From: Hamiltosporidium tvaerminnensis
Taxonomy: Eukaryota; Microsporidia; Dubosqiidae
Direction: 5' to 3'
Length of the DNA: 64,000 nt
NCBI GenBank assembly: GCA_022605425.2
Contig: JAKIMF020000004.1
Span: 1,113,501 to 1,177,500, forward strand
Positions within the stretch are counted from its first letter, which is position 1. Each line of letters opens with the position of its first letter. Positions 20,811 through 63,700 of the stretch are shown here, one piece after another. Made by a program: the position numbers and the translations under genes. The notes under the pieces are model-generated. The model saw nothing but the letters and a program-made list of their open reading frames with translations. It had not been told where the DNA came from and searched no databases.

Positions 20811-20814
20811 TTAA

Positions 20815-32224: not shown

Positions 32225-32565
32225 TTATCTAATCAACCATTATGTATAATTTATGAAACATGTATTTAGTACAATCAAAATACATTATTTCCTTCTTATC
32301 ATATGCATATTACATGTTTCATCTAAATTCTTCCTTTTTTTAATTGCAAGTTAAATTAAAAATTAAACCAAAACAAATTTTATTGTCAGTTTCAAATAAT
32401 TCGATAAATTATATAATAATTTTACCATAAATTTAAAAGTGAATTTATTTTGTTATTTCACATAAATTATGAATAGTAAAATAAATCTTGGTATATAATT
32501 ATATTGGTATTCTTTTGTAAAAATACTTAAATCTTTTTAAAAAATAATTTTCTATATAGTATATT
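32225..32565. other. AT-rich spacer between U1-C-like gene and retrotransposon
   Basis: No feature recognised. Probable 3' flank of the U1-C-like gene. Confidence 0.45.
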
Positions 32566-32567
32566 TT

Positions 32568-35035
32568 TATTTAATAAAATTCTGGGTTAACAAATTTTTC
32601 TTTTTAAATAATTCTTTCCACCATTTCAACCACTTCTATCTCTTCCTCCAACTCCAACTCTTCATTTGTATTAGTTGTTGGTTCCTTTGCCGTGGTTATG
32701 CCATCCAAAATAAGGGGTAAAATATTTTTTGTATTTTCCGTTTTAACATCATCTTCCTCGTTGTCTCTTGCTTTAAAGGGGGTATTGGTTGTTTATGCAT
32801 CTCAGCTCCTAAGATAACACTTAATGATGCTCTCTCCCAGCTCTCCTCGGCATTTGGACCAGACTCAAGTCCTCTTCGTCGATCAAAAGAAATTGTTTCG
32901 ACTGTTTTCTTGAGTACTATGGATTGTATATATGCCTCTACATTCATGGGTATTTGCAGTCTCTTAACATACGTCTTATGGTATTTTGTCACAATACCGT
33001 CCCAGGTCATCACATAAGGAATTATCTCTACATTGCATTTATAAATAAGACTTAACTCATTTGCTAATAGGTCATACTTCCTAAGCTTCTCTGTTTCAAC
33101 TATTTGAAGAGAGTCTTGGGATGTGATTCCTACTTCAATGAGGGTTATCCTATTCTGTCTCTTGTCTAAAATAAATATATCTGGTCTGTTACACCAGATC
33201 TTGACATCAGTTTTTATTCTGGTGTCCACTCTTATCTCTGCATATTCGTTATCAAGAATTTCTTGAACTTAGTGGCTTCTAATTTGTTTCGAAGACTTAA
33301 ACTTATATTTATTCAGCAAGAGTAAATGTATACATCGTACCACTTCATTATGTCGTCTAGTATAGTCATGACCAAGCATTTTTTCACATCTCGTTGCTAA
33401 GTGATCAACAGTTTTCCTAGACTGGTTGCAGTGTTGACACATACCTTCTGCACCCCAGAATACATTTCTATCCTGGATATAACAGAACACTGCTTCATTA
33501 CGTGATCTTACACTTCCTTTCTTTAACCATCTTGAGGAGTCATTTACACTTACCAGCTCGTTATTTCTAGCGCTATATAACTTTGAATGTAGTTTTCGAT
33601 TTTTGATTTCGTTATATAGGTTAGCTAGTTGAGCTTCTTCCAATTTCTTTTTTGTGACTTCCTCTTCCAACCCGTATTTTATTTTTAAAAAGTTTTTAAT
33701 TAGTGAAAGGTGGGTTTTATTATTATTCTTAACCTTTAGGATTGCTGCTCTTCTGGTCGATGTATCTTTATGTTTTTCCAGACAATCCAAGAGTTGCAAA
33801 AGCATATGTTCGCTTTTTAACTCGACACTATGTAAACCTCTTCCAAGTTCTTTACGTGGAAGGTATAGACGTTCTTTGCATCCTGGGCGTAGAAGTATTT
33901 TGTTCTTTACTAGCACTGCACGCACCGCATCATCTAACTTAGAGAAGTCAGCCGGTTCTAGTCGGTGTACACTTATATGATAGTTTAGTAAAGAAATTGC
34001 ATGTTGATTAATGGCTTGAAATAAATTTCTTGCATTTAATCTCGTGCGACAAAGTCTTTCTACTCGTGCTATAAGTTTGGTCTGTACTTCCTCAAACGAC
34101 TTACTTGTTGGAATTCCTCTGCTATCTTCTATAATTCCAAGGTATTTATAAAAACCTATTCCTTCAAGAAGAGTAGCAGTATCTTCACAACATGGATCAT
34201 TAGTGGCTGACTTCTCTTTGTTAATTTCCAATCCTATATTATTCATAAACTTTTTAACCTCCTCTGTCATTTCTTCCAATGTTTGTCCATCTTCGGCAAG
34301 AAGCTTAAGATCATCAATAAACAAGAGATGATTAGTCGCGTGGGATTCTGCATCTGTCTTTATTGTCACTTTTGTGTATTTCTCATTAAGCTTTCGGCTC
34401 AATGGATCCATACACAACACAAACAATAATGGTGACAAACTATCTCCTTGCAGAATCCCTCTATCAATCTTCTTGCTCATAATTTTTTCAGGCCCTATTG
34501 ATATATCAATTTTCCATTTTGATATAATTACCTTAATAAATTTCAGGATCCAATCAGGTAAATTAAGGTTTTCAATACATTGAGTCAAATAAGCATGATC
34601 TATTGAATCATAAGCTTTTTTGACATCAATCCATGTTGCCTTAAGATTGTTTCCGTACTCCTTATTAATGGCAATATTCAATAGGGCCTGTTCTTTCGCT
34701 CCTTGCACTCCTCTTACTGCTCCCAACTGATTTTCTGAAAGTAATCCTCGTCTTTCCACCTCAACCTGAACCACTTTAGTGACACATTTTGTAGTCAGTT
34801 TATACAGGTTTGACATACAAGTTATTGGCCTGTAATCAGAGCCAGTCTTTGGTGTACCTTTAGGTATCAGATAAGTAAGTCCACAATAATACCAATCGGC
34901 TTGAGGCGTTCCTTCTAAACATATGGCTTTTACAATATCGTAAAGATATTTATGAAGGCTCGTAAGTTTCTTGATGTAAAAGTTATAAATACCATCAATT
35001 CCAGCGGCTTTCCAGTTAGGCAGCCAATTATAGTA
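32568..35035 (-). mobile_element. R4/Dong-like non-LTR retrotransposon, 5'-truncated
   Basis: The largest copy of the family. It begins abruptly within the reverse transcriptase at about 35033 (LPNWKAAGIDGIYNFYIKKL) and ends near 32570 with TTCTGGGTTAACAAA in plus orientation, matching the 3' end of the copy at 16445. AT-rich, non-homologous DNA precedes the start, as expected for 5' truncation during target-primed reverse transcription. Decayed relatives lie at 42.5-46.0 and 51.2-51.8 kb. Confidence 0.9.
32696..35035 (-). pseudogene. R4/Dong-like reverse transcriptase-endonuclease with one in-frame stop
   Basis: One frame runs from about 35035 to 32696, broken only by TAA at 33271-33269. 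The RT shows ATWIDVKKAYDSIDHAYL (motif A), GILQGDSLSPLLFVLCMDPL (B) and HLLFIDDLKLL (C, with IDD in place of the usual ADD). Near the C-terminus CQHCNQSRKTVDHLATRCEK and RRHNEVVRCIH form the CCHC-type finger. After the stop, RPDIFILDKRQNRITLIEVG is the PD-(D/E)xK endonuclease of this clade. The downstream part (33229-32696) would otherwise appear as a separate frame. The fragment at 17.1 kb has a Ser codon at the stop position, so the stop is a recent point change. Without the 5' end the copy cannot move alone. Confidence 0.9.
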
Positions 35036-35690
35036 TATAACAATATAAATATTATAATCAAATTCCACTGATACTTTATTTATATGAATGAAATAAAACA
35101 GATATTCACTAGCAAAATAAATTTTGGGTTTGTTGTAAATAAATTCACTAAATAGCAAACAAATAGATTTAGGTTACGACGTAGTTCCTAATAAATTGCC
35201 CTAATATAATCATTTAAAAATATAGTTATGAAATCTTTAATCTTGAAATTTTCATTAAATATAAATTTTTTTTAATCGAAATATTTGTGTAATAATCTTG
35301 TTATTGGGACAAATGAATATTAATAGAAATCAAATTATTTTGTCCTAATTTGGGTAAGAAGAATAATTTAAAAGACACTGTATAGAAATTATAAAATATT
35401 TTTAGTTATTTAAGAATTAAATTAAAAATATGGAAAAAACTACTGAAAATATTGACATTGATTTTCATTTACTACAATAATTTTTTTATATAGTTAATGC
35501 AATTTTGGACATTAATGTATTGAAAGGTATATGATTCTTGACTTTTTTTCTTACAAAATTATTTTATAATTTGAAAATTTATACAAAAAGAATGTTACTT
35601 GCTAATGTATAATGTGATAAATGTAATTTTCAAAATATCATAATTTACAGTTTATTTAAATAAATTGGTTGTGACAGTTAACCACTTTTA
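35036..35690. other. AT-rich stretch
   Basis: Nothing recognised. The first 120 bases extend the RT frame upstream but show no homology to it. Confidence 0.45.
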
Positions 35691-35694: not shown

Positions 35695-36560
35695 CATCTG
35701 CTGCAACAATTAGGCACATTTGATGGGAAAATCCTTTTTCAATTTTTTAGTAAGATGAAAAAAATCATATTTTTGGTTTTTAGATGGAATTTTGCTAACA
35801 AGCCAACGGCGAAGATACTATGAAATATCTTTTGCAAATTTTTGACTTTTTTTATAGCTAGATTGTAAACAGCGGCTTAAATCAAGTTTAATTTACATGT
35901 AAAGCCTGTAAACCTAGCCTTGCTCACTCGATTATAAAATTTATTATAAAAAAAAATTATACCCCTTAAAAAGCTTACAAACTTATTTCTTTCCTCTTTT
36001 AACTCTGAGTGTCGGGGATGAACAAATGAATGTTTTCCATTCGTTTCTTTTCATCAGTTGTAACTCGGGATTATAGAAGATTGGTCCATAGACCCGATGT
36101 GGTTTATTTATACTCCTCCACAATGGTAGGAATAATTGCAATACAAATTGTACATATTTATTACCAGGCTGAAAGTTTTTAATGTGGGCATCCTCCCTCC
36201 ACAGCCCCTTAAAATGCATAAAAAGAAAATTATAAAATTATACCTCTTGATATGAATTTGCGATTTCAAGGTTTACCATGTGTAACTCGCTAAAGTATAT
36301 ATTAGATAGAAGTCTATTAGGTTCGAAGAGAGTACATGAAGGTACGAATACAGCTGTTCATTCTTGAAATAATTGTGGTTTTATAACGACCACATCTTAG
36401 GATTCAAATTTTAACAAACTCATGGTAATTGCTTTAGGGATTAAGGAATTTAGCATACCTTTTAGATAAAACCTATGTGAGTTGGTTATTTTAGGGGGCA
36501 TCGAGAGAACTCTATCGACCAATTATCTTCTTAATGCTTTAAATGTGTTATTAACATAAG
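35695..36560 (+). repeat. Retroposon family R735, copy G, interrupted
   Basis: Decayed plus-strand copy in two parts. The first (to about 35980) ends after AAACCTAGCCTTGCTCACTC. The second resumes at about 36225 and includes TAGAAGTCTATTAGGTTCG and the AACCTATGTGAGTTGGTTAT region. An insert in the opposite orientation lies between the parts. Confidence 0.65.
35980..36219 (-). repeat. Inverted insert nested in copy G, related to the retroposon 5' end
   Basis: On the minus strand it starts with a 78-codon frame whose first part, GLWREDAHIKNFQPGNKYVQ, parallels the translated 5' end of copies A and I (WREDNHIKNFLLGNECVK-like). The following 150 bp differ from the family. It may be a related element with a different body, or part of the progenitor gene from which the retroposon took its 5' end. 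Confidence 0.5.
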
Positions 36561-36639: not shown

Positions 36640-37345
36640 AAGAGAGGATATCAATAAAAACTTTATACTTGCCAATGAATAGGCGAAATTCGTGTTAAGA
36701 TCATTGTATAAATTTTCGATGAGGATATCTCCTGATATATTTTCGGTTGTTTTATATGAATTTGTAGATGGAGGTCTACTAGATGGCGAAACCTTTGACG
36801 CGAATCTATTATGTAGTTTTTATGCAACCAGATCAGAGCCAAACCTGTAGATGATTTCTATGTAAAATCATATGTACTAGACCTTTTCACTCGGGCTAGA
36901 AGACTATGCGCTCGGATGATAAAAAAATAAAATCTTTAAGAGCCAGGAGAGCCAAGATACATATTATACCTGTTGAACAAATGGTACTGTTTAGTTGTAA
37001 TCCATTAAAGTCACCGAGATATATCTTAGCTAGAAATTTATTAGGTTTGGAAATTGTAGAGTGATTGAAGACGCTGCATAGTCATGAGAGGAAGCCCCGA
37101 GAATGTTTTTACCTACGAGCAAACTCTATGCAATAGACATTAACAATTGCTTGAAACGCATTGCCCATTAATTGGGTTCTACATGCCTTTTAGATGAAAG
37201 TATTTTTATTATAGGTATTTCAAGGGATATCGATGTGATGTTAGGGGCCAGTTATTTATCTTAAAATTACGTTATATCATGAAATAAATATAAAACCTGC
37301 CATTATTTTTTAAAAAGGTATGATGTTTGTAAAGAATGATATTTA
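36640..37345 (+). repeat. Retroposon family R735, copy H (moderately decayed)
   Basis: Plus-strand copy with CTTTTCACTCGGGCTAGAAG (36883), ATATATCTTAGCTAGAAAT (37019) and TATAAAACCTGCCATTATT near the end. It lies in tandem with copies G and I. Confidence 0.8.
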
Positions 37346-37514: not shown

Positions 37515-38215
37515 ATGGAGGAGGATAATCACATAAAAAACTTTCTGTTTGGAAATGAGTGTGTCAAAGGGTGTGAGGATCATGTTTGGATTTTTGGTTG
37601 GATTAAAACCACACATCATCTTCATTGTTCCATGGGAATTGTTATGAGAAGGAGAGGTCTACAAAATAGCGAAACTTTTTCTACAAATGTATTTTTAGTT
37701 TTTTATGTAACCAGATTGCAGACCGCAGCTGAAATAGTAGGTAATTGCCATGTAAAAGCATAGGAACCTACCCTTGCTCACTCGGGTTAGAAGATTTAGC
37801 GCCCGGGTGATATGAAAATAAAAACCAGGAAAGCCAAGTAGCAGGTTATACCTGTTGGTATGACACTGAATTGTCTAGGTGAACTCCATATAAGTCTCGT
37901 AAATATATCTTAGCTAGAAGTTTATTGGGTTCGGAAAGTGTAGAGTAAATGAGAATGCGGCATAGTTTTGGGGTGCTTCGGCCTTCGATCACACTCCATG
38001 CAACGGACATTAACGAACTCCGGGCAACTGCCTCGCCTAGTAATTAGGTTCTACATACCTGGTAGATGAAAGGGCGTTGGGACGTATGTATCGCAGGAGG
38101 TATCGAAGGAATATTGGGTAGCAGTCATTTATGTAAAATCTAGAACTGCGTTTATGTCATGAAAACAAATATAACACTTGCCACTGTTTTAAAAGGATGT
38201 GATACTTCTAAATAA
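37515..38215 (+). mobile_element. Retroposon family R735, copy I
   Basis: Well-preserved plus-strand copy from TGGAGGAGGATAATCACAT to GATACTTCTAAATAAA. The internal frame (37512-37763) begins MMEEDNHIKNFLFGNECVK and shares the VFYVTRLQTAAE segment with copies A and K, but frames do not match along the whole length. I see no clear target-site duplication. Confidence 0.85.
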
Positions 38216-40660
38216 ATATTATATTATTCGAAAAAACTCGCTTCTTTGCTTCCCGAAAAACCAAAATAAATTTCGCCAATATGAAAATGATAATTTTTTT
38301 CACATAAATATGCATTTAGATGAATTATTTGTTTTTGCAAACAAATATTATCCTGTGTTATATAAACGGATAATCAAAAGAATAATTACAATTTATGAAA
38401 AAACCAAATATTTTTTTAAATTGCACGTGTTGAATTTTTCGATGCCATTATGTCTTTCGAAAATTATGATATAAAATGCTCTCTAGAACTCAATCCTTAC
38501 ATTTTAAAATTATGAAAATCTAAAAGAATTTTATCTAAATTATATGTAGCACCCGTCTAATAGAGCTGATTGTACATTGGAGTTTAATATAACCGTTGTA
38601 TTAATGGAAAGCAGACCGGAACTAACCTCGGTCTCTTAGAAAGCCGGCATCTTTGGCAAGCACCTTACAAGATCAAAAAAACAATTCCAGATAATGCGTG
38701 CATTGGCGACTTATGTTGGGTCCCATATATTTTCCCTTTCAAATAAACAGATATAGCCGGTTACTCCGATTTCCTGGCTTTCTGAAAAATGTCTTCATAT
38801 CACACCGGGAATAAGTTGTGTAATCCTTATGGGAAGGTTAAATTTATACTTTACATTAGAACTACCCACGAGTTAAGTTACAGTTTATAATATATTTAAA
38901 TAAAAAACGAAATTTTTTTTTGTAGAAAATATTACCGATATGTGGATTTTTCATACTCAACACAAATAGGTACAAGAGAACTGAAATAATTAAGTAAATG
39001 AGACCTTCTTCATCTTATAAAAAATTTCCGAAACAGATCAACACGTAATGTGAATTTCATCTTACTAAAACCCAACCAATAATTTATACACAAATCCAAA
39101 TTAAATAATACTTAAAGGATGTTTTCTATGTGGTCATATACTTATCCTTTGACCTATAATATAGGAATAAGTATATTAAAATATCAAATATTTCTATTAG
39201 TTGATGTAATTTAGTATTTTTTGAATTAATCACACGATAGAAATATAAAAATTTATAGTAAAGCTTTTTTAGTTTGAAAAACAACACATCTTTACTTATG
39301 AAGAAATCGGATTTCAGTGCTAGAGATAGATAAAGATTTCTTTGCTTAAATAACTAACCAAAACATCAGACTTTCTTGTTTAAGTATTAGTTTAATTTTT
39401 TCTAAATGACTTTCACCTTGAATCATTATTTTACAAAACTCTAAGAATTAGCATAAAGGTAACTTTGAATTTTTAGGAAAATGCTTGTGAATTTCGAATA
39501 ACTTGTTCAATATATATCATTAATAGATTAACAAGGCAGATAATCTCATGATATTATATATTTTATCTTGTTGATGTTTTCATCAAAACTAGAACAGTTT
39601 ACCAACCAATTTATTTCAAACATTTTAGCATACAAACCCTTATTCTTTTAGACTCTGTAATATCATAATTCGATTTCTGGATAATGAAGTTGTATTTTTA
39701 TAATAAAATTATAGTTTTCCTAAGTAAATTTCATCTTTGGTGTTATAAAAGACTTAAATTCATCTATTTCCATAAAAATATTGTTTTCTTTTGTTTTTTC
39801 AACTAAAATTATTAACTTCCACATTATTTTAATTTTAATTTTGAAAATATTATGAATTATCCAAAAAAAACTAACTTGCCAAGGCTCACTCAAGGTAACA
39901 ACAACAAGAATTTTTTAAAAAATCAAAGCATTAAAACATTTGGCTTTATAATTGTTTAAAACGCTTTTTGAAAAAAAACTTGGTCTTATAATAACAAACA
40001 AACCAATAATAGTCTAATTATGAAATTTATACAAACATATAATCTAGATTTTCAAAGTGATAACGATTATAAATCAATTGCGTTTAATTATAAAAATAGT
40101 TAATAAAACAAATGATATTAAAAATATTACAACAAAAATTCTTAAATAAAAGACTTACTAGGATAAAATTTTAATCACTATATGCGTTTCTAATTTAATA
40201 TAATTGATTCTGTGTCTTTACGTTTTTTTACATTTGATTTTTGATTTTGAATCTATGGTTTGTTTCCCTTCATTTCTCTACAATTTATTCTTCGATAATT
40301 TGAATTTATATGCATAATATAGCCTAGTATATTTATTTGGATGTTGGAAAATTTATTCGTTTCGGGTAATGCCTACTTCTTTAATTAAAGTTATATTCGT
40401 TCTTCTTAGTGAACATCTGTATTTGTTTTGAGTTCAAATCATTTTCATAGAAAAGAAAATAAATTTTGAAAATGCTATATTATATATTGCCTAAATATAT
40501 ACTTCAATTATAACTGATATCTGCGTTTATTAGGCACATAATATAGTGTTAAAACAATAATCTCAGAAGTTTAAAGAGTAATGATATTCAAATACTATGT
40601 ATATAAAGCGTTTTACAACATCAGTAAACAAGTATTGATTCTTAAAGGTTTAGTATAACA
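38216..40660. other. AT-rich stretch with a GC-richer patch holding a retroposon fragment
   Basis: A GC-richer patch at 38540-38880 includes AACAGATATAGCCGGTTACT and TTTCCTGGCTTTCTG (about 38750-38797), a short inverted remnant of the R735 family. The rest has no recognised feature. A 91-codon frame at 38199-38474 has no support beyond length. Confidence 0.45.
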
Positions 40661-41325: not shown

Positions 41326-41745
41326 TTAATGAACTGGATTGTAATATAAATATAACGCTTCAGAAAAAATAAAAATATCTAATAAAAGTATAAAAAAAAT
41401 TGATATTAGATAGAAGATTATTTCGCTCCAATAAGAAGATCTCAATACATTTTTTAAATCCAGAATTAAATAGAGCAAAAAAACTATTTTTATAATTATT
41501 GAAAAAAAATTCATGAATGCAAGTTTCTCTGAATTATTTTCTATCGAAATTAAAATTTCTATCAAATTGAGAATCAACAAAATCGTCATTAATATATAAA
41601 ATAAAATTTGGATCACGATGTCTTTTTTTTGAAGATTAGAATTGTTTTCTTGGTTTGTGTTTAATGATTCGTTCGATGAATTCAAGCGAAAATAATTGTT
41701 TTGGTCGTGTAAATTCACGGGATTTAGTATCAAAGATGGATTCAT
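41326..41745 (-). CDS. Small membrane protein, family with paralogs at 48917 and 19821
   Basis: A 139-residue protein starting MNPSLILNPVN. The frame extends further upstream, but the ATG inside CCATATAATGAAT is shared with both paralogs and gives matching lengths. The N-terminal 50 residues are polar with the conserved NSSNESLNTNQENN and LQKKDI. Three hydrophobic segments follow (about 52-72, 82-102 and 112-132), the second containing FFSIIIKIVFLLYLILDLKN. I do not recognise the family. The polar head and three-helix tail suggest an integral membrane protein with a cytosolic N-terminus. It sits in a duplicated segment with an R4/Dong relic upstream. Confidence 0.65.
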   Translation of the reverse strand: MNPSLILNPVNLHDQNNYFRLNSSNESLNTNQENNSNLQKKDIVIQILFYILMTILLILNLIEILISIENNSEKLAFMNFFSIIIKIVFLLYLILDLKNVLRSSYWSEIIFYLISIFFILLLDIFIFSEALYLYYNPVH

Positions 41746-42479
41746 TATATGGAACCCACCGATTTTTTTAAAAATATAATTTATCATCTTAATAAAATAT
41801 TTGCTGTATTGAGAATTCAATATTACTAAAAATGAATAACTTATAAATTATGCTAAAAAATCGCAAAAACTTTTGTTAAGAGGTTTTTAAGCATAAATGT
41901 ATCCAATTAAAGATTACCAATTCATTTATTCTTTCATATCTTTTTTTCTACTTAAAATATTCTGTTACCTGGTCGTTTTATTAAAAGTCATTTTCCAAAT
42001 TAAAATGTGTTTTTAATCGTAATTCTTTGCAATAATCGGCATTTACCAATTTTAAGCCTTTAAGCAAGAACAATTGCTTGCTAATCTGTGTATCTGATCA
42101 GCGCATTTTTCTCAATGCAGCTCTGCACTCTGATCGAATTGTTAAGTTATTTCACTACTCTTTATGCATTCAACTCGCCATCAATCAAACGAAACAATTT
42201 ATACTATTCTTTTTGAAATCAATATCTTGATTTATCTTAGTATTTTTGTTGAATACACGTTTTTTTAGTATATTATTAAAATATTTCGTCATTATATATT
42301 GCTTTGTTCAAAAATTACGAAATATTTATGCCTCGAATTTATACATAAGACTACTTCTGTAACTACCAGATCCTAAATCTTACTCTCAAATCTGAAGGTT
42401 TATCTATTTGACAAAAGTTTCGTAAAGATAATTCAGTAAGTATCTTAGTAATAAATTCTTAATCCTATTTAAGTATTAA
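41746..42479. other. Upstream region of the membrane-protein gene, duplicated at 49.3-51.2 kb
   Basis: The block nearest the start (41800-41860) and blocks at 42078-42140 and 42270-42310 (ATTAAAATATTTCGTCATTA) recur upstream of the paralog at 48917. No gene of its own. Confidence 0.6.
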
Positions 42480-48916: not shown

Positions 48917-49330
48917 TTATTGAACCTTATGGTAAGTGAAATAAAATGATCCCGAAATAATATCAACTATAAGTATAATCAACATCGTTATGTTATAAAA
49001 AGATATTTCGTGGCAATAAAAATATCGCTTTACGTTTTTTAATTCAAAAAATGAATAAATCAAATAAAATATTTTTATAAATATTGAAAAACCAGCCAAT
49101 AATGTTAGTTTTACTGCATGCTCATTCGATAAGTTTGAGATTTGTATCCAATTAAGAGTAAACAATGCCGTCATTAATATAAAAAATATGATTATGTTCG
49201 TGATGTCTTGTTGTTGAAGTTTGAAATTATTTTCCTGGTCTGAGTTTAATGATTCGTTTGTGGAATCTAAGCGAGAAAAGTCATTCTGTCTTAATAAGTT
49301 CGCAACATTCAATTTCAAAGAGGAATTCAT
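48917..49330 (-). CDS. Small membrane protein, paralog of 41326
   Basis: A 137-residue protein starting MNSSLKLNVANLL. It aligns along its whole length with the 41326 protein: LDSTNESLNSDQENN, LQQQDI, then hydrophobic segments at about 47-63, 78-98 and 108-130, the second with FSIFIKIFYLIYSFFELKN. The ATG lies in the shared context CCATATAATGAAT. The conserved polar head and intact frames in two diverged copies suggest that both were under selection for some time. Function unknown. It lies in the second copy of a segmental duplication, whose upstream part is split by about 1.2 kb of extra DNA. Confidence 0.65.
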   Translation of the reverse strand: MNSSLKLNVANLLRQNDFSRLDSTNESLNSDQENNFKLQQQDITNIIIFFILMTALFTLNWIQISNLSNEHAVKLTLLAGFSIFIKIFYLIYSFFELKNVKRYFYCHEISFYNITMLIILIVDIISGSFYFTYHKVQ

Positions 49331-51170
49331 TATATGGAAGCTAGAATTTCTTTTTTTAAAAAAATTTAATTTATCATTTTTTATAAATAATTATTTGCTC
49401 CGTTTGGAATTTAATATTGCCAATAAAGGAAACTTAAAAATTAAGCAGTGAAAAAAATTAAGAAACTACTATATAAAGGTTTTAGTGCATGGATTTATTT
49501 TAAATTGATTATATTCCGTAAATTCCATATTTATTTTCTCTTTCGACCCATAATCGTTTCGGCTTGCCGTTATTATTAAAATCTTCGGTTGAACATTAGA
49601 TACGGTTAGAGAGAAATGAAATTTATTTTTGTCGCATTTTTCTCTATTTAATTTTTATTAACAAAATTCGTGTAAAATAATATCCGCTTTATTTAATATA
49701 TACTTTCAATTAATTTTCAAAAAGTTTACTTTTAATTTTAAATCGATGATTCCTTTTAAAAAATATTCGTAAATGAAATCATTCAACTTAAGCCTTTTGT
49801 TAAAATTATGTTTTGTTTTAAAACTTTCAGATCTCGACTATAAATTTTCGATTATGTTGTTATTAATACCTGATTCCCGTATAAAATATGTTAAAAGGTT
49901 TACACTATCATAAGAAAAGAATTTTGTTTCTTTCTAATTGTTGTAGGCATGAATGGTGTTCATCGGAATATAAGGTTCATCTTAAAAGATATATTATATC
50001 TAGCATTTTTTAAAAAAACCAAAAGTTCTATTTGTAACAATTTGCATATAGAATCTCTTTGTCGTTCTCAAAATAGCTCCTCACACCCATTGTGGGCAGA
50101 TAAGACTCATCTATTATACTTTCTTTTGACTATAACTATTTCATATATTTACCTACCTGTTCACGCCCAACAATTTTTTTCACAAGAATACAAGCAATCG
50201 TTTTGCATTAGATATCTTAGGTTCTTTAATAGTGTCTGTTATAGTTGCATCTGAAAAATCATGCATGGCTCTGATGGATCATATGGTAATTCAAAAGTAT
50301 ATCTTCAAATGATATAAATTACATCATGAATTCCGATTTTTAAGTTTTCAATTACACTAAAGCAATATTCGGTTATATTTCTTATCACAAAACGTACAGC
50401 AGAAAAGAATCCTTCATAGAGAAAGAATCTAGGTGTTAAGTCTTCTATTTCAAACATAACATGATTTTGCTAATTATGCCTTTCTAAGAAAAAAAATTAC
50501 ATCTCTATGTTACTATCGTTTCTTACTTGTATTTCGAAGCTTTTGATAAATAGTTTTCTAATTTTAACAAGTACCATAACAAATAGAAAATTTAATGCGA
50601 AATTCAAATAGTTATTAAAGTTATATATTTTGTAATATTTAAATTTTTCATTGTAAATTGATAAAAAAAGAGGTAAAAATAAAAACTAAATTCCCTTAAA
50701 AAATTTTTATTTTCCCTCTGACCTTCATCGAGATTCCAACCAAATCATCTTCCATATTAAATTTTTGGATTACTTGTCTTTCTTTTATACAATTCAAGTT
50801 TGCTATTTTTGTGAATTGAGTCTAAAACTGCTGTATTGCTAAAATATGTGTGCGGATTAGCGCGTATAATGCAAAGCAGTTCTGTAGTCTATCTCACATT
50901 TTTTTATATTATTCTTTGTGCGATAAAAATTCAGTTCTTTTAAGAATAAATATAAAGAATTTTTACTGAATTTCGCTGTCAATAATCCGGGTTATGAGAT
51001 TCATTTCTCCAAAACTACGGATTTTTAATGTATTAATTAAAATATTTTGTCATTATATATTGTTTCGCTAATAATATCAAAAACCAGTTCCACAACAAAA
51101 TTTTAAATTAGACTTGAATTCATAACAAGAAGTCTTCTATCTTTAGTTTGATAATTGGATTTAATTTGAA
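49331..51170. other. Duplicated upstream region split by about 1.2 kb of extra sequence
   Basis: 49331-49450 and about 50690-51170 match the upstream region of the 41326 gene. The middle part (about 49450-50690) has no counterpart there and probably contains an insertion. Its frame at 49949-50254 runs against a minus strand with protein-like fragments (ESIIDESYLPTMGVRSYFEN), which might be a transposase relic. I could not confirm a family. Confidence 0.5.
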
Positions 51171-51968: not shown

Positions 51969-52729
51969 TATCATTCATCAGAAGTGGAGGGAGGATAACC
52001 ACATAAAAAACTTTCTGCTTGGCAATGAGTGTGTGAATCTGGTGTGAAGATCATTGTTTGGATTTTTAGTGGGAATAAAACCACACTACATCTTCGGTTG
52101 TTCAATGAGAGTTGTTATGTGGAGAAGAGGTCTAAGAACTGGCGAAACTTTTTCTACAAATTTATTTGTAGTTTTTTATGTAACCAGATTGCAGACCGCA
52201 GCTGAACATGTAGGTAATTGCCATGTAAAAGCATGGAAACCTAGCCTTGCTCACTCGGGTTAGAAGATTTAGCGCCTGGGAGATATAAAAATAAAAACCC
52301 TTAAAAGCCGGGAGAGCTAAGTAGCAGGTTATACCCGTTGGTATGACATTACACTGTCTAGGTGGACCCCATGTAGTTCTCTGAAATATATCTTAGCTAG
52401 AAGTTTATTAGGTTCAGAAAGTGTAGAGTAAGTGGGAATGCTGCATAGTCTTGGGGGAGCCCAGGGGGAGGTTTCGGCCTTCGATTACACTCCATGAAAC
52501 GGACATTAACAAACTCCGGGCAACTACCTCGCCTATTAATTAGGTTCTAAACACCTGGTAGATGAAAGGCTTTGGGACGTAGATATCGCAGGGTTTACTG
52601 ATGGAGTTTTGGGGTAGCAGTTATTTATGTTAAACCTAGAACTGCGTTAATGTCATGAAAACAAATATAACACTTGCCACTGTTTTAAAAAAGATGTGAT
52701 ACTTTTAAATAAAGTTTATCATTCATCAG
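51969..52729 (+). mobile_element. Retroposon family R735, copy K, with 13-bp target-site duplication
   Basis: The element spans 51982-52716 (735 bp) between exact copies of TATCATTCATCAG at 51969-51981 and 52717-52729. It begins AAGTGGAGGGAGGATAACCA and ends ACTTTTAAATAAAGTT. Long duplications of variable length (13 here, 11 at copy F) point to target-primed reverse transcription. An open frame at 52054-52263 (FYVTRLQTAAEHVGNCHVKA) is shared in part with copies A and I. No reverse transcriptase is encoded, so it must rely on another element. Confidence 0.9.
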
Positions 52730-53231: not shown

Positions 53232-53623
53232 TAAAAAAATAGGATATAAATGTGGTACAACGTAAAAGGCACTCTATAGCTATTTTTTTAGTTAAAATTT
53301 TTAATTTTTACCAAAATTCATAAAACCAAAGTAGAAAGCCAAATCCTTTTTCAAAACAGTAAAATCACCAATAAAAAATAAAAATAAATTAAAATCAAAC
53401 AGTAGTCTTTAGTTGAATATAAATAGATTTACTATTTTTTTACATAAATTTTAAAAAAATAAATCAATCTCTATTTTTTCTTAATAAGCAAATTTATATA
53501 AATACTAAAAACCACCACCTAATAATACAAAGCACATCTAAACACCACCTAATACCATTAAACACATCGTTATACCCACTAAAAAAATTTTTAATTTAAA
53601 AAGATCTATTTCGATAAAAAATT

Positions 53624-53702
53624 CTTTTAATTAAAAAAATATTTTTCACCCAATAAAAAACTATTTTAATTAAAAAAATATTTTTCAACCAATAAAATAA
53701 TT
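53624..53702 (+). repeat. Tandem pair of a 40-bp unit
   Basis: TTTTAATTAAAAAAATATTT followed by TTCA(C/A)CCAATAAAA occurs twice in direct succession, 85 bp upstream of the Hsp70-like start. It might influence expression; no evidence for that beyond position. Confidence 0.6.
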
Positions 53703-53772
53703 ACAAATGGATTTAAAATAAATTAAAAAAAAAATTTAACGGAAAAAAAAATATTTTATTTTGTATTTTAAA

Positions 53773-53778
53773 TCCCCC
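53773..53778 (+). promoter_or_regulatory. C-rich start-proximal motif of the Hsp70-like gene
   Basis: CCCCCT lies 8 bases before the ATG, in a TTTTAAAT context. It resembles the CCC-type signal described for microsporidian genes. Confidence 0.5.
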
Positions 53779-53786
53779 TAAAAAAA

Positions 53787-56222
53787 ATGATAATATTTCT
53801 TTCTTTTTTCATTTTTGCAATAAAATGCGAAATACTTGGAATTGACTATTCAGATGAAATGAGAACAGCTCAAAATATTCGATCTCGAAGAGTTGTATAC
53901 AAGATAAATGGAAGTTTATCGCGACCTACAATATTAGACCTTAAAGAAATGTCACCTACAAAATTCCTTTCTTATTTTACTATTGAAGACCTTTCAGATA
54001 TTTTTTGTTTTGAAAGTAAAGATTTGTGTGAAAAAGTTCCGTATTTAGTAATTTTAGAAAACAAAGAAAAACATTTTAAGATTCCTAGTTTAGAGTCACC
54101 TTTAAATTTTACAGCCTTAAATTTTCTTTTTGTTAAATATTTAAATCTGGAAAATAACAAATTTAAATGTGTTTTGTCAAAGCGATCTTATCTCACTAAA
54201 GAACAGTCCCAACAGTTGTTTCAGTCTTTTCATAAAGCAGATTACAAAGTTTCTATGGTTGTACCAGAATCTCTTTGTTTTCTAGCAGATTATATCTCAG
54301 CACTTCCCATTGAAACAGAAGAAGAAGTTAAGAAAAATAGTGAGAATGAAAAGAATGATGAGAAAACTGAGAATGAAGTTAAAGCCGACAGTGAAGTTAA
54401 AACTGAGAAAGATGAGAAAAGTGATAAAGAACAGAAAGATGAAAATGAAAAGAATGAAAAGAAAGATGAAAAAGAGAAAGACAATAATAAATACGAAGGA
54501 AGAAATTACCTTGTAATCTCTACAAGAGGTATAAAATCTGTATTTTCAATGTATTCAGTAAAAAAAACAGAAAAAAAAGTAAATTTTAAAAATTTATTTC
54601 ACCTCGAATCAGAAGATTTCAGTGACAAAACAATAAAATCAACATTTTACTCAATCGTAGAAGATATAACAGTAACCAATTTTAAAAAAGAATTTTTAGA
54701 ATCAAAAGGATCCTCAGTTGAAATACCAACCCTTATATGTTACCCAAGAGACAAAACAGTTACTCAAGAAAACAATAATTTTTTATTTTGTGATTTATCA
54801 AAAATAATAAAAAAAATAATTGAAGGAATCATAAGAAACGATGATATTTACAAACCTTTAGACATAAAAACCTACAATTTAAACAAAGAAGTTAAATTTG
54901 TGTTGTTTAACACATTTTTTGATTTAAAAGAAATAAAAAATATTTTTTTAAAAATTATTTTAGAAAAAAAAACAAAATTTGAAAATATAAAAGAAGAAAT
55001 AAAAAGTAAAATTGAAAATAAAGAATTTAAAACATTATTTTGTTCAAATTTTGTAGAAATGAAAATGTTCCAAAATATTTTTCCATTTTATTTTGAAACC
55101 AAGTATACCAATAAAGACAGTATTTCATTTGGTGCTGCGTATTTAGGAGAAAAGCATGTAAAAATACAAGACGAAAGAATTCTATATCCAACCTCAGACA
55201 CCTTATTTGGAAATTCCAAATCCAACAAAATAATTGAAAATGTTATTAAAGAAATTAAAATACGAAATGACTTTAAAAATACTCTTGAAAAATTTGAAGG
55301 CCAAAATCTTTTAAAAAATTTCAGTGAATTTTCTGACACAGAAATTGGTGAAATAATTGAAAAAGCAAAAAAACAATTTTCTAATTTAAAAGAAATGGAA
55401 AATTTTATTTCTTTAATAAAAAATAAAATTGAAGAAAATTCTAAACGAATCCGTGAAAAAGAAAGAAAAGCCAAAGAAATTGAAAGAAGAGGTGAAGGTG
55501 TTAAACAGTTAGACAATTTAATCTCAGAACTTGAAAAAGAGAATTTATTTGCAGACCTAGAAGATTTGAGTAAAGAGAGTATTTCTAAAGAAGATATAAA
55601 GGATCATAGTAAAGAAGATATCAGTAAAGATAATACTAACAAAGATAATACTACCAAAGATAATATTACCAAAGATAATATTAACAAAGAGAATACTACC
55701 AAAGAGAATATTAACAAATATAATATTAACAAAGAGAATATTAACAAAGAGAATATTATTAGAGATGTAAATACTACCATTCCTACTGATACCTCTACTA
55801 AAGAAGTAAAGAACATAGGAAGTGAACACCTTGTTGAACTTAGAGATGTATTTGTTAGTGTTAAGACTTGGTTTGAAAATAACAAAGAAAATAAAGAAAT
55901 CGGACATTCAGAATTCTTAAATCAGTTTGTTAATTTAAAATCAAAACATCGAATTATTACCACACGAATACAAAGAATGAAAGAAGAAAAAGAGAGAATT
56001 GAGAAAGAGAAGTTGGAGAAAGAGAAGTTGGAGAAAGAAGAGAAAGAAAAGGATAATAAAGGTAAGGATAATAAAGAGAAAGAAAAGGATAATAAAGAAA
56101 AGGATAATAAAGATAAAGAAAAAGAAAAGGAGAAAGAAGATATTCCAACTTTACCCTCTGAAGAAAATGAAGTCTTACCACCCTTTAATGAAACACCTTC
56201 TTTTGAAAAGACTGAGTTATAA
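53787..56222 (+). CDS. Divergent ER-luminal Hsp70 (GRP170/Lhs1-like)
   Basis: An 811-residue protein. Residues 1-15 are a hydrophobic signal peptide (MIIFLSFFIFAIKC). EILGIDYSDEMRTAQNI (15-31) corresponds to the first phosphate-binding motif of Hsp70s but lacks the usual Gly-Thr-Thr/Ser. SISFGAAYLGE (444-454) is the family's late nucleotide-binding-domain motif. The expected DxGGGT motif is missing: YLVISTRGIKSVFSMY (243-258) occupies that place, so ATP hydrolysis is doubtful. A Lys/Glu-rich insert covers about 175-241. The C-terminal half is helical with KDNT/KENI repeats (about 611-660) and a KEKDNK tail (about 735-785). The last residues, KTEL, resemble an ER-retention signal. GRP170/Lhs1 proteins act as nucleotide-exchange factors for BiP; this role is inferred. 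Confidence 0.8.
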   Translation: MIIFLSFFIFAIKCEILGIDYSDEMRTAQNIRSRRVVYKINGSLSRPTILDLKEMSPTKFLSYFTIEDLSDIFCFESKDLCEKVPYLVILENKEKHFKIPSLESPLNFTALNFLFVKYLNLENNKFKCVLSKRSYLTKEQSQQLFQSFHKADYKVSMVVPESLCFLADYISALPIETEEEVKKNSENEKNDEKTENEVKADSEVKTEKDEKSDKEQKDENEKNEKKDEKEKDNNKYEGRNYLVISTRGIKSVFSMYSVKKTEKKVNFKNLFHLESEDFSDKTIKSTFYSIVEDITVTNFKKEFLESKGSSVEIPTLICYPRDKTVTQENNNFLFCDLSKIIKKIIEGIIRNDDIYKPLDIKTYNLNKEVKFVLFNTFFDLKEIKNIFLKIILEKKTKFENIKEEIKSKIENKEFKTLFCSNFVEMKMFQNIFPFYFETKYTNKDSISFGAAYLGEKHVKIQDERILYPTSDTLFGNSKSNKIIENVIKEIKIRNDFKNTLEKFEGQNLLKNFSEFSDTEIGEIIEKAKKQFSNLKEMENFISLIKNKIEENSKRIREKERKAKEIERRGEGVKQLDNLISELEKENLFADLEDLSKESISKEDIKDHSKEDISKDNTNKDNTTKDNITKDNINKENTTKENINKYNINKENINKENIIRDVNTTIPTDTSTKEVKNIGSEHLVELRDVFVSVKTWFENNKENKEIGHSEFLNQFVNLKSKHRIITTRIQRMKEEKERIEKEKLEKEKLEKEEKEKDNKGKDNKEKEKDNKEKDNKDKEKEKEKEDIPTLPSEENEVLPPFNETPSFEKTEL

Positions 56223-57725
56223 TTCTAATTAAAAATATTATTTTTTTCTAGTAATGATCATTGTAATTTTTATATTATGTTTTATAGTAATTTTTATAGT
56301 ATTTCCTAGTAATATTTAGTAATCTTTATAGTATTTCTTAGTAATATTTCTAGTAATGATTATAGTCTTACATTCTAATATGCTCTAGTAATGATTATAG
56401 TAATTTTTATAGTAATTCCTAGCAATATTTAGTAATCCTTATAGTATTTCCTAGTAATATTTATCATTTAGTATCCACTTAACTGTTAAAGATATTGCAA
56501 AAATAACTTATTTACATCTAAAGTATGTAAAATACATAGATTATTTATATTAAACTTTATTATATAAATCATAGTTTCTCATCCTTCTAAATAATAATTT
56601 TACATTCTCTCTATATCTATACATATAATACTTCCTTAATATTTCATATCCAAATAAGTAATTACTCTTGAGTATCTTCCTATTTTATATTTAATTTGTT
56701 TAATTTACCATTTATACTTTTCTTCTTATATTCTTCTCTTCTTATATTCTTATATACTTCTATTCTTATATTTAATCTGTTTAATTTACCATTTATACTT
56801 CTATTCTTCTTTCTTATATTTTATATTTTATATTTTATATTTTATATTTTATATTCTTCTATTCTTCTATTCTTATATTTAATCTATTTAATTTACCATT
56901 TATACTTCTATTCTTCTCTTCTTATATTTTATATTTTATATTTTATATTTTATATTTTATATTTTATATTTTATATTTTATATTTTATATTCTTCTATTC
57001 TTCTATTCTTATATTTAATCTATTTAATTTACCATTTATTTTACTTACAATTAACATATATTTCTATGAAATGTACATATATTTCTATGAAATGTTTTTA
57101 TTTGTCAGAAAAAAATACTTTTCTTTTATTAAAGATATAATTCTTTTTCTTAAGATATAATTCTTTTTTTTAAGATATAATTCTTTTTTTTAAGATATAA
57201 TGTATTCTTAAGATATAATGTATTACTTAATTATATTTTTTTAAATAAATTATTATATTTTTTATAATTCTTACTTTATTTCTTACTTTAATTCTTACTT
57301 TAATTCTTACTTTATTTCTTACTTTATTTCTTACTTTAATTTATCAACTATCTTGACATTTAAACCAAATACCAATACAAATAACATTTACCAATAACAT
57401 TTACCAATACAACTTATAAATAACATATTAACAATACAACTTATAAATAACATATTATTAATACAACTTATAAATACAACTTATAAATAACATATTATAA
57501 ATAACATATTAACAATACAACTTATAAATAACATATTACCAATACAACTTATAAATAACATATTATTAATATCACCAATACAATTGATACACCCCTTTCT
57601 ACAATCACCTATCCAATATCCACACCCCTTTACTTTCTCCACCCCCTTTTACTTCCTCCACACCCCCTTTACCTCTCCACACCCCTTTTTTTTCACAAAT
57701 ATTAAAACCCACCAAAAAAGAAAAA
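56223..57725. repeat. Tandem-repeat-rich spacer between the Hsp70-like and DOP1-like genes
   Basis: Almost wholly made of simple tandem repeats. 56240-56460 has TAGTAATATTTATAGTATTT-like units. 56690-57040 has three or four units of about 115 bp around TTTAATTTACCATTTATACT, each with TATATTTTATATTT runs of different length. 57120-57230 has TAAGATATAATTCTTTTT units, 57270-57345 has TTCTTACTTTA units, and 57375-57580 has ACAATACAACTTATAAATAA units. The 154-codon frame at 56696-57160 is a by-product. From 57590 the DNA becomes C-rich on the plus strand, leading into the next gene. Confidence 0.8.
57709..57716 (+). promoter_or_regulatory. C-rich motif upstream of the DOP1-like start
   Basis: ACCCACC lies about 12 bases before the ATG at 57728, in a broader C-rich tract (57590-57690). 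Placement matches the CCC-type signal at the other genes here. Confidence 0.4.
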
Positions 57726-57727
57726 GA

Positions 57728-60700
57728 ATGCAACCCGAAAAAAACACAGACACCAGATACAACACAGAAATAAAAAAGAAACTTGACGCTTTCAAAACAG
57801 CAAAACAATGGTCAGATTTCATATCACTCCTCTCTTCTTTAGACACAACCCTAAAGAAACACAACACAACATACATTCCCCACAAAACCCAACTATTCAA
57901 ACGTTTAAGCCAATGTCTAAACCCTGCACTACCATCAGGTGTCCATAACAAAGTACTTCAAACATACCACATCATTTTCCAAAAATTAGACACACAAAAT
58001 TTTATAAAAAACTTTAATTTATACACACTTGGTCTCTTCTCATTCTCTATTCATACACGTTTAATTCTTAAATCTCAATATGTAACACTTATCCATACAC
58101 ATATAATACCCCTTTCTCCATATTTACATCCATTTATAAGTAATATACTTTTAGGTATTTTACCTAATCTTGATGAAGAAAATACAGATCATTATTCTCA
58201 AGCACTTAAATGTCTTAAAGATTTACTTACTCTTATACCTTTACCTTTATTTAATACATCACTTTTTTATTTATTACAAACATGTACACACCTTAGACAA
58301 CCAATTACTAATTATTTAATTAAGTATTCTATACAATATAAAGTATATATTACATTACAAACTATTAAAGCATTTTCATATTCTTTAAAAGATAAAGAAA
58401 TATTTGTATTAAGAAGTATATTAGATATACTTATAATGAAATATAATCTTAAAAAGATACTAGAGTATAGTGGTGAGGGTAGTGGTGGTGTGGGTGGTGA
58501 GGGTGGTGATGTGGGTGATGTGGGTAATGATAAGAATAAGGATAGTAGTGGGGATAGTGATAAGGATATAGATAATAAGGATAACATAGATAATGATAAC
58601 ATAGATATTAGGGATAACATAGATATTAGGGATAACATAGATAATACCCCTATCATAGATAAGGATATTAAGGATATTATAAATACAGATGTTAAGGATA
58701 AAGAAAGAAATATGATTTTAGATATTTCATTTAAAGAGAATTACAATGGGGGTAATGATAGTGGTAATAACAAAGGGGATAATGATAATAGGGGTAATGT
58801 TTTAGGTAATAATGATATAGGTAATAATGATATAGGTAACGATACTTTAAATAACCCTTTAAATAACCCTTTAAATAACCCTTTAAATAACACTTTAAAT
58901 AACCCTTTAAATAAGGATACTATTACCAATAACACCCCTTTAAATAACAACAATACCAGTAATAATATCACCCTCCACTATATCGTTGATCTCTCTGTTA
59001 ATATACTTAAATTATTTTTAAAAAGAGATATTTCCTTAACAAAACGTGTTTATAGTTTTTATGAAATATCAGATTCTATAAACAAAACCTCTTTAAATAT
59101 AATATGTCTTAGTTTATATGAATTATTAAAAAGAAAAGATTTTATTTCTTTTTTTAAGATTATGATATGTCTTAGTGATAAGAAAGATGTATGTGATAGT
59201 GTATTGTTATTAATAACACCATATTACCTATATAGGATATATGAGGTGTATGGAGTGGTGGAGGGTTATATGGGTGATATAGGTGATATTAGTTATATGG
59301 GTTATATGGGTGATATAAGTAATAGAATAGGTGATAGTAATAGAATAGGTGATAGTAATAGAATGGGTGATAGGTTAGAGAATAACCCTACTACTAACAA
59401 CCATTATACCAACAATACTACTAACAATACATCTAACCCTTATACCAACAACCCATACAACAACCTTATAAATATTAATGTAGATGTTCTTAAGTATGTT
59501 AATCTCTTTCATGATACTGTTGAAGTATCTTTTATATGGAAATTAGTTATAACATCCTTTATAAAGAGAATAAAGGGTATATGTAATGAAGAGGGTGATA
59601 TAGGTGATGAAGAGGGTGATAGTAGTTATAAGGGTGATGTAAAGGGTGATAGTGATAGTAGTGGTAGTGATAGTAGTGATAGTGGTATAGGTGATAGGGG
59701 TAGTAGTTATAAGGGTGATAATAAGTATAAAGATATAAGACATATAAATAACAGTACTAACAATAACCCTACTATTACTAATACTTATACTAACAGTACT
59801 AACCCTTATACTAATAATACTAATAACCCTAATACTAACCCCAACCCCACCCCTACCCCTACTAATAATACTACCCCTTATACTAACACACCCTCCACCC
59901 TTATTACCCCCCTACCTCTTAACCATTTTATTTATGTTTTATCTTTTTTTATTAACAACTTTAATTTCTGTGATAAAGAGGTGTTAGAAATACATATTTT
60001 ATTTTTATTTTATTTATGTTTAAAATATAAAAAGTATTTTAAAAAAGAAGAATTAACAGTATTTTTATTATTATGCATAGAGAGAATGGAGTGGTGTTGT
60101 GATAGTGGAGGTAGTGGTGATAGTGGTAGTGATATAGGTGGAGGTAGGGATGTGGGTAGTGGTAATATAGGTAATATAAGTAATATAAGTAATATAGGTA
60201 GTATAGGGTGTTATAGTGCTAGTAGTATAAGTGATATGTATAACACTATAAATGATAGTATAAATGATAACAGTATAAGGGATAAGAAAAATAAAGATAT
60301 AAATACTAAGAATACTAAGAAAAATAAGAATATAAATAATAAGAAAAATAAGGATAATAAGGATAATAATAATAACAATACTAACAATAATAAACATATC
60401 AATACTAACAATACTAACAATACCAATACTAACACACATAATATCAACCAACATAATAACAACACACATAAAAACATTGATAGTCTTAACTCTCTTCATA
60501 TTTCTATTTTTAATTATTATGAAGGTGTTAATGATAGTATTATTAATAATTTAGATATTGTTTATGTAGGGTGTTATTTATTAATATTAGGGTTTTTTAA
60601 AGATAAAAAGAATTTTCATTTTTATAATTTAATTTTAGTAAAATATTTAGAGAGAATGGGTGTGGGTAAGGGTGATAGGGGGGAGGGTGATAGTAGTAGT

Positions 60701-63700
60701 AGTAGGGGTAAGGGTTATAATAACACTAGTATAAATAATAACCCTAGTATAAATATAAATAACCCTAGTATAACTAATAACCCTTATACTAAACATATAA
60801 ATAATACCCCTTATATAAATAACCCTTATATAAATAATAACCCTTATAACCCTTATATAACTAATATAAATAACACACACATTACACCCTCCCCCATTAC
60901 ACCTCTACCTTTATCCTTCTTACATTTATATTTTAATATAATATTACAAGGTAGTGTTAATGAATTAGAAAATTCTTTAAAAATATTTAAAAATTATAAA
61001 TTAGAAGGGTTTTATTCATTAGAATTATTTAAAAAATTATGGAATAATTTTAATTTTAGAATGTGTTATTTATTATATGAATTTAATATTTTATATTGTT
61101 GTATATTTGAGAGGTATGTTATTATAAGGTTAAGTGGTATAAGTAATAACATAGAGTATTACAGTAGGGATTTAGATGATAGTATGTGTGATAGTGATAT
61201 TATGTGTGATGGTGATAGTATATGTGATAGTGATAAGAATTTAGATAATAGTAATAAGAATTATAAGAGTAGTAGTAATAAGAGTAATAAGAGTAATAGT
61301 AATAGTTATAAGAATAAGAGTAATAAGAATAAGAGTAGTAACAACCAATATAATAACAAATACACTAACCAATATACTAACCAACATACTAGTAACAAAT
61401 ACACTGATGTCTATAAAACTTCTAATCTTTTACTTTTTATTATAAATGTTTTAAGAAGTGAAGAGTTATACTTTATGGATGCATTTGTATATTTAAACAG
61501 GATATTAAGAGAGAGTATGTGGTATAAGGGTAATGATAGAGATATTAGGTATAAGGGTGATATTAGAGATACTATAAGAGATAACAGTAATACTATAAGA
61601 GATATAAATTATAAGGGTGATATTAGAGATACTAATAATAACATTAATACTATAAGAGATAACAGTAATAATATAAGAGATACTTATAATAACACACCAT
61701 CATATAACACACCATCATATAACACCCTATCATATAACACACCACCTAATATATCTAACACATCAGATGCTAATATCTTTCTTACTTGTTTGAAAAGAAT
61801 AAAACACTTTAATTCTATTTATAAATTTATATTAAATAAATTAAAGAATGCATGTATAGAAAGTAAAGAAGGATATTATTATGATATTATAGAATATGAT
61901 ATAGTATATGGAGTATTTGATTGTTTAATTAATATGTTTGAGTATTGTAATGAGTTTATTATTTTTTTAAGAAGTAGTGTGTATGTACAGGGTGATGGGT
62001 TTATGGTGTTTCTTAATAATGGGGTTGTTAATGTTAGAAAGGTTTTATTTTCTAGTTTTTTGTATTTTGTTATCAACGATGTTAAATGTGATTTAGGGTG
62101 TGGGGATGGAGGGTGTGGGTGTGAGTGTGGTGATGGAGGGTGTTATAGTAAGGATAGTAATTATAAGGATAGTAATTATAAGGATAATACTAAGGATAGT
62201 AATTATAAGGATAGTAATACTAAGGATAATGATTCTAACAATACTGACAATACTACTTACAATACTAACAATACTAATAACTATAACTATACTAATAACA
62301 ATACTAACTATAACAACTATAACAACTATAACAACCATCCAAATTATCCAAATACTAATACTAATTATCCAAATAATCACTTGTCTGAGATACGTAGAGT
62401 ACGTTTGATGGCTTTGTTTTTAATTTCTAAAATGGTAGATTTAAATATGTTAGAATCTCAAGAAATAATATCTTATGATTTAAATCCTTTTATTTCTTTT
62501 ATAATAAAAAATATAAATGATGTGTTAATTGTATGGGAATGTTTACCTTTATTAAAAATATTAACAGGTAATGAACAATGGGTGAATATTTATTTTAAAA
62601 AGGTGTTTGAATTTTTAGTTGTGTATTTTTCTAAGAAATATTCTTTTTTTATTTTTGAGATTTTAAATATAGAATTAAGGAATAAGGTTGTTCGTGAGGT
62701 GGTGAGTAGTAATATGTTGTGGGATATGGATGTTTGTGTGGTACAGGGGTATTTTTCTTATGTTTTTGGGAATAAAGAATATTTTGGGGATGTTCTTGAG
62801 AAATTGGTGTGTGGGTGTTTTAGGTATGTTGAGGGTAAAGTTGGAGGAGGAATAAGAAATTATGATATTTTAATAGGTGGTAGTATAGGTTATGTAGGTA
62901 ATAGGGAGATAGTAGAGGAATTAAAGGATAGTAAAGAAATAAAGGATGTAAATGATATAAGAAAGGATGTAAAGGATAAGAATAGAGAGATAAAGGATAT
63001 AAGAAGGGAAGTAAGGGGTAACAAGGAGATAGTAGAGGATAAGAATAGAGATGTAAAGGATAACAATAGAGATTTAAATGAATTAAGAAAGGATAATAAA
63101 GAAATAAAGGAATTAAGGGATGTAAGGGGTAACAATAGGGATTTAAATGATATAAGAAGGGATGTAAAGGATAAGAATAGAGAAATTAAGGAATTAAGAA
63201 AGGATAAGAATAAAGAAATAAATGATGTAAAGAAAACCCCTAAAACCCTACTAAATGATGTTCTTTATGATAAATATTCTACTTCTTATATGTTTACAGG
63301 GTTAAATATAAAAGAAACTTCTAATTTTATTTGTATGGATTCTTTAATAGAAGAATTTAAAAATATAAATTTTAAGAAATGTGTAGATTTAAATGTAGAA
63401 CCTTATATTTTACTTTTAGATTTTATATTTTTAAAAGAAAATATTTTATTTGCTAAATGTCTTTTAAATTTTAAATGTGAATCTATAATTTTAGAATTAA
63501 ATTCTTCAAAATTAAATCTTTATATGATTTATTTAGAAAAATTTAATAAAAATATAGAAATATTTCCTTTTTTATGTAAAATAGAGGAAAGTTTTAGTGA
63601 GGAAAGGATTTTAGTAATTTTAGAACAAAGTATTAATATTTTAAATATTATGTTTTTAGGGAAGAGTAAGAATGGAAATTTAAAACATTATATTTGGTTT

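Follow-up and report, generated by a model that had tools for sequence, protein, structure and literature searches.

Short interspersed elements (SINEs) derived from tRNA, 7SL or 5S genes are non-autonomous and non-coding, and they are dispersed with target-site duplications (TSDs). The RIME element of trypanosomatids, also non-coding and several hundred base pairs long, depends on a long interspersed element (LINE) with which it has both ends in common. Here we describe an abundant ~728-bp element of Hamiltosporidium tvaerminnensis, a microsporidian parasite of water fleas, that differs from both. It was recognized by an earlier note in a stretch of 64,000 nucleotides (assembly GCA_022605425.2, contig JAKIMF020000004.1, positions 1,113,501 to 1,177,500 of the forward strand), hereafter the window, in which one of its copies is called K. 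The element is longer than the tRNA-, 7SL- and 5S-derived SINEs and, unlike RIME, has no DNA similarity to the body of its candidate LINE at E<=1.

The closest analogue is the EhSINE1/EhLINE1 pair of Entamoeba histolytica. In the portions of the two reports drawn on here, EhSINE1 is a long SINE of 500-600 bp whose TSDs fall into classes centred on 9-13 bp and on 18-24 bp, EhLINE1 specifies a restriction-enzyme-like (REL) endonuclease, and EhSINE1 inserts by target-primed reverse transcription (PMC2996970, PMC3118788). The Hamiltosporidium element is likewise a long SINE with a similar range of TSDs and a candidate partner LINE whose predicted endonuclease is restriction-like. On the same partial account, however, EhSINE1 has ~70 bp in common with EhLINE1 and carries internal repeats of 26-27 bp, whereas the present element, with a body of ~728 bp, has 9 nt in common with its candidate LINE and inhabits a microsporidian. 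LINEs of the R2/R4 (Dong-R4) type, which the candidate helper appears to resemble in its reverse transcriptase (RT), its CCHC motif and its predicted C-terminal endonuclease of R2 fold, code for protein, whereas the element itself codes for nothing. In Microsporidia sp. MB, such LINEs rank first in abundance among the retroelements, according to the part of the report consulted (PMC13174016). The word "SINE" does not occur in the main texts, so far as these were available, of six publications dealing with the genomes or transposable elements of microsporidia (PMC4202319, PMC7313128, PMC10542269, PMC12449221, PMC13174016, PMC2784321), and a literature search for microsporidia or Dong-R4 with SINE gave no microsporidian SINE by title among the matches listed. 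We judge the element to be a new representative of an already known type of genomic parasite, its most unusual point being the small tail that it has in common with its LINE.

Boundaries, target-site duplications and copies of the element

The body of the element runs from GTGGAGGGAGG to TTTTAAATAAA(G) over ~728 bp, and both of its boundaries are sharp. When 28 copies (lowest identity 94.8%) were aligned with their flanks, agreement rose from 35-71% over the 17 columns that precede the first G to 96-100% from that G onward; at the other end it dropped after AAATAAA, to 85% at the G and then to 82, 64 and 53%. Head-to-tail spans measured 723-730 bp in 44 of 46 cases. The remaining two (749-750 bp) were the outer spans of loci L010 and L011, in which a ~20-nt 5' stub, GTGGAGGGAGGATAACCACA, is doubled ahead of the full element within one TSD. 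One form of the doubled stub, sought with up to two mismatches, was found once in the genome; only the inner bodies of these two loci entered the consensus and the alignment-fold analyses. The consensus (44 rows) is 728 bp long, has a GC content of 42% as against 26.6% for the genome, and contains no open stretch longer than 77 codons in six frames. The constant length, defined ends and absence of an encoded polymerase proposed by the earlier note are thus borne out, and the consensus stays within ~730 bp rather than extending far beyond 735 bp.

Exact TSDs of 9-19 bp, with a mode of 12-13 bp, flank 33 of the 46 spans (44 loci), as compared with 41 of 2,228 shuffled flank pairs that had at least nine exact bases in common; in a larger set of loci the count was 37 of 51. 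The duplications therefore vary in length directly at fixed ends, as had been claimed. The TSD and the initial GTGG are most often separated by exactly two bases, which vary in sequence (19/37). Among the 46 spans, L010 and L011 are counted twice, by outer and inner head, and five loci are omitted: L007 (flank identical to that of L006, a duplicated region), L057 (cut by the end of the locus), and L016, L021 and L027 (first or last motif altered).

Copy K is itself bounded on both sides by exact 13-bp repeats, TATCATTCATCAG, at the very positions first reported (Table 1); it consists of two extra nucleotides (AA), the consensus body 1-728 at 51984-52713, and then G and TT. The window contains 13 BLAST blocks of the family, of which five are full length (84.8-96.2% identity to the consensus), one is nearly full length and seven are older fragments. 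Amounting to 5,906 of the 64,000 bases (9.2%), these blocks lie in both orientations and range from 66.6 to 96.2% identity, in keeping with the many copies of differing ages that had been noticed.

In the genome as a whole (21,638,905 bases, 17 contigs) there are 242 exact matches to the 28-nt head and 271 to the 26-nt tail; the same sequences read backward, as controls, did not occur. The 40 that were scored of 1,411 candidates from a search with the element were all nearly full length, with at least 95% identity (rounded), and the family is dispersed over the contigs. On contig C1, 10 of 14 loci, picked by hand as only one exact terminal tag was listed for each, were full length (1-728). In the other four (L085, L087, L088 and L092) the copy was truncated or rearranged, that of L088 being incomplete partly because the stretch taken begins inside the element. 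L087 (G000:C1:1293500-1294520) and L088 show the last 43 nt of the element three times in succession and a truncated copy directly behind another. A single substitution separates copy L011 from L024, and one substitution plus one gap separates L012 from L015; because the members of each pair lie at unlinked sites on different contigs and have different TSDs, they indicate that the element was recently active. Old copies used as queries found, among the 40 matches scored of 700 and of 354 candidates, themselves and matches at 71-72% and 68-70% but no closer sister group, and a scan of viral contigs for the exact head found no occurrence.

In the broad sense the element is a SINE, being short, non-coding and present in many dispersed copies with variable TSDs at fixed ends. 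It is not one in the strict sense, which calls for a head derived from an RNA polymerase III (pol III) gene with A and B boxes: the customary patterns for these boxes had no exact match in the element (with one mismatch allowed, one B box and 12 A boxes), and ARAGORN found no tRNA in the window. Rfam gave no match above the gathering score for the window and five weak matches (E 1.1-9.1) for the element. Hence the earlier note was right in seeing no obvious tRNA head, and its statement that the family has no recognized relative holds for Rfam at the gathering score and for DNA and protein comparison with the candidate LINE. Constant ends and length, TSDs of 9-19 bp, the lack of coding capacity and of terminal inverted repeats (TIRs), and hundreds of dispersed copies all support a non-autonomous retroposon.

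The candidate helper LINE

The candidate helper is an abundant LINE with an open reading frame (ORF) of 1,253 codons, whose exact tail occurs 353 times in the genome. Its protein, the best-scoring homologues of which bear the name of H. tvaerminnensis, matches RVT_1 at residues 504-743 of 1253. Ten residues (C147, C150, H159, C164, P232, D233, E248, K264, K267 and Y268) are at least 90% conserved among 24 sequences; we take them to be those of the CCHC and restriction-like endonuclease motifs. The predicted model of the C-terminal endonuclease matches the R2 fold. With an RT followed by a CCHC motif and a restriction-like endonuclease, the LINE is, on this model, of the R2/R4 type. The copy in the window is degenerate (Table 1), and four relatives elsewhere (93-94%) have open frames of 1254-1287 residues without stops and align to its RT ORF from about residue 12 onward. 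The 3' ends of LINE copies align at 32565-32612 and 16441-16560.

TSDs of 11-18 bp were present in 17 of 26 LINE copies as against 9 of 1,245 shuffled pairs; the 26 were those of 30 loci that had both end motifs, L029, L037, L039 and L058 being left out. Up to eight non-duplicated bases precede the ATG in L043, L044, L047 and L048, as if LINE transcription had started in the flanking DNA and a few of its bases had been taken along: L043 has AAGCAAGT in common with the end of the L044 duplication, and L048 has CTT, three bases only, in common with that of L047. We also note that the insertion sites of element copies L009 and L062 coincide with the 3' end of a LINE copy or lie within ~15 bp of it.

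What joins the two families is, first, that both end in TTAAATAAA and neither has a microsatellite tail. Second, the surroundings of the nick are alike: T is found at -2 in 29 of 37 element copies and 13 of 17 LINE copies, and at -8 in 26 of 37 and 12 of 17, and the A/T contrast from -10 to +4 is correlated between the two (0.48, permutation p 0.036). We conclude that the element is probably a long, non-coding, SINE-like retroposon, most likely mobilized by the R2/R4-type LINE of the same genome. Mobilization by a LINE with the same 3' tail had been predicted. A candidate LINE was indeed found, but because the identical tail proved to be only 9 nt long, we infer the pairing of the two, and with it the mobilization.

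The shortness of this tail is one of several points that weigh against our conclusion, and in a genome this rich in A and T, ends resembling AATAAA are not diagnostic. An exact TSD of at least 9 bp is missing from 13 of the 46 element spans (two of these being the inner heads in L010 and L011; the outer ends of both loci carry duplications) and from 9 of the 26 LINE copies, and a search for empty sites with joined flanks gave none that was convincing among the sequences compared, the spanning rows being AT-rich or weak. The nick profiles diverge at -1 (T in 17/37 for the element versus 13/17 for the LINE), and the T-rich +1 and +2 positions of the element (27 and 26 of 37) are not clear in the LINE (10 and 8 of 17). 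T is enriched at -19 of the element too, so part of its nick profile is noise.

Two other connections were considered and rejected. Similarity of the DNA upstream of the nick to the element tail TAAATAAA was not supported, as the boundary ranked 3 of 43 for the element and 7 of 43 for the LINE. Nor was a coding origin of the element from the LINE supported: the best eight tblastx matches to LINE loci all fell within an element copy inside L057, and blastx against 52 LINE proteins gave a best E of 1.6.

Proposed mechanism and rival explanations

We propose that an element RNA of ~730 nt would serve as the template for target-primed reverse transcription at new sites. The RNA is probably a product of RNA polymerase II, because the consensus contains internal runs of five or six Ts, which would argue against full-length transcription by pol III. 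A full-length transcript would run from 0-2 nt before GTGGAGG to near AAATAAAG. The enzyme would most likely be supplied by the abundant R2/R4-type LINE, with its RT, CCHC motif and restriction-like endonuclease; it would nick AT-rich DNA on the bottom strand, at sites with T at -2, and begin reverse transcription at the ...TTAAATAAA terminus of the RNA. A second, staggered cut would create the 9-19-bp duplication. The terminal nucleotides presumably matter for recognition of the RNA. More speculatively, and with somewhat less than even confidence, we suggest that a REL-type (R2/R4) LINE gives rise to large numbers of copies of an unrelated 730-nt RNA with a common tail of no more than 9 nt, that recognition of this RNA depends on a very short terminal motif or on the fold of the RNA itself, and that this SINE is a leading cause of genome expansion in Hamiltosporidium.

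Of the alternatives, the one that survives best, though we think it improbable, is a retroposon whose helper is another LINE, either a low-copy LINE of the apurinic endonuclease (APE) type or a family not seen here. That only 9 terminal nt are common to the element and the abundant LINE would suit this explanation, and the existence of an APE-type LINE, with endonuclease PF03372 and RVT_1 in a 1130-residue ORF, also counts against our conclusion. However, PF03372 has only six matches in the genome (four on C1), not all of which need be LINEs, and PF14529 has none. The apparent 3' end of the APE-type LINE, moreover, carries TTTTA or TTTA repeats (L095 and L096), which the element lacks; a third copy, L097, showed no such motif, which leaves this 3' end provisional. 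The R2/R4-type LINE is present in far greater numbers and has TSD length and part of the nick context in common with the element. On these grounds we favor it as the helper, although a common tail of 9 nt is weak evidence. In L095 (G000:C1:619800-623900) the low-copy APE-type LINE is followed by a block with TCTAGAACCGAAGT and CCGGGTCGGTTT; this block appears twice, in each case with TTTTA or TTTA repeats further on.

Less likely still is a swarm of processed pseudogenes of one host non-coding RNA gene in place of a self-perpetuating SINE lineage. The high GC content of the element and a moderately stable central fold (241-380, z -2.5, the only one of 11 windows to reach that value) would fit such a gene. 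In an alignment of 24 diverse rows of 49, windows 241-360 and 301-420 had z of -3.3 and -3.1, and the whole-alignment energy was -94.6 as against -74.1 +/- 4.9 for 10 column shuffles. As the column shuffle does not keep dinucleotides, we grade the evidence for a conserved RNA structure as weak, although not nil. The full-length fold, by contrast, has a z of only about -1.5, the best Rfam match is at E 1.1, and copies differ from their nearest neighbors by 1 to 195 substitutions, with some close pairs well apart from the rest, which argues against a single source gene.

A miniature inverted-repeat transposable element (MITE) or other non-autonomous DNA transposon would be of constant length and dispersed, and MITEs have been described in Nosema in literature seen in part, but the best TIR-like match of the ends is 8 of 15 in a 15-nt comparison and the TSDs, at 9-19 bp, are not of fixed length, so that we regard this origin as very improbable. 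Duplications made by long terminal repeat (LTR) retrotransposons have a fixed length of 4-6 bp; a solo LTR could be non-coding and of this length, but with GTGG and AAATAAA(G) in place of TG...CA ends and variable TSDs of mostly 12-13 bp, it is scarcely credible, and the family is unlike either class that the earlier note had named as refuting its reading.

According to the portion consulted, the 2009 draft genome (of what was then Octosporea bayeri) contained unexplained non-coding repeats, for which a telomeric or sub-telomeric location was suggested (PMC2784321). The published assembly of 21.64 Mb in 17 contigs is described, in the part drawn on, as having 39.56% interspersed repeats, with 25.45% of the genome classed as "other" (PMC10542269). 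Because the family is dispersed, recently active and so prominent in one window, it may account for a sizeable part of this "other" fraction. Having so little sequence in common, the element and the candidate LINE are well suited as a pair to the question of which RNA features an R2/R4-type enzyme requires, and insertion polymorphisms could serve as population markers.

Features of the window

Table 1. Copies of the element and of the candidate helper LINE in the window (identity is to the element consensus)
Feature	Positions	Strand	Remarks
Left TSD of copy K, TATCATTCATCAG	51969-51981	+	Exact 13-bp match with 52717-52729; same site as locus L001
Retroposon copy K	51982-52716	+	96.2%
Right TSD of copy K, TATCATTCATCAG	52717-52729	+	Exact 13-bp repeat
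Full-length copy	9966-10689	+	95.6%
Full-length copy	21819-22547	+	84.8%
Full-length copy	30976-31686	-	87.0%
Full-length copy	37516-38216	+	87.4%
Old nearly full-length copy, consensus 23-727	36656-37336	+	71.3%
Old fragment, consensus 138-468	13266-13583	+	66.6%
Old fragment, consensus 233-728	19083-19574	-	66.6%
Old fragments, consensus 14-42 and 153-704	20810-21460	-	86% and 67%
Old fragment, consensus 160-273	35822-35930	+	74.8%
Head fragment, consensus 1-51	36152-36202	-	82.4%
Fragment, consensus 345-431	36238-36324	+	75.9%
Candidate helper LINE copy, truncated, frame-broken	32565-35173	-	RVT_1 E=6.3e-30
RT ORF of this LINE copy	33269-35173	-	
Further ORF piece of this LINE copy	32696-33268	-	
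3' end of this LINE copy	near 32565	-	
Second LINE fragment, 3' part	16441-17057	-	Direct repeats D8 and D19 with LINE 32764-33181

Finally, we note some features of the window outside these families. Nearly 10 kb (53580-63222) are rich in short tandem repeats, many of them with units like AAAGATAATA or GATAACAATA, and overlap a charged ORF of 816 residues (53772-56222) that has no Pfam match. A 785-residue ORF at 24031-26388 matches a leucine-rich repeat, with a score under the curated cut-off. At 41326-41861 (-), 48917-49455 (-) and 20299-20365 there are two ORFs that resemble each other (173 and 157 residues), with hydrophobic stretches, and a repeated stretch next to them; these perhaps represent a multicopy family of membrane-protein genes.
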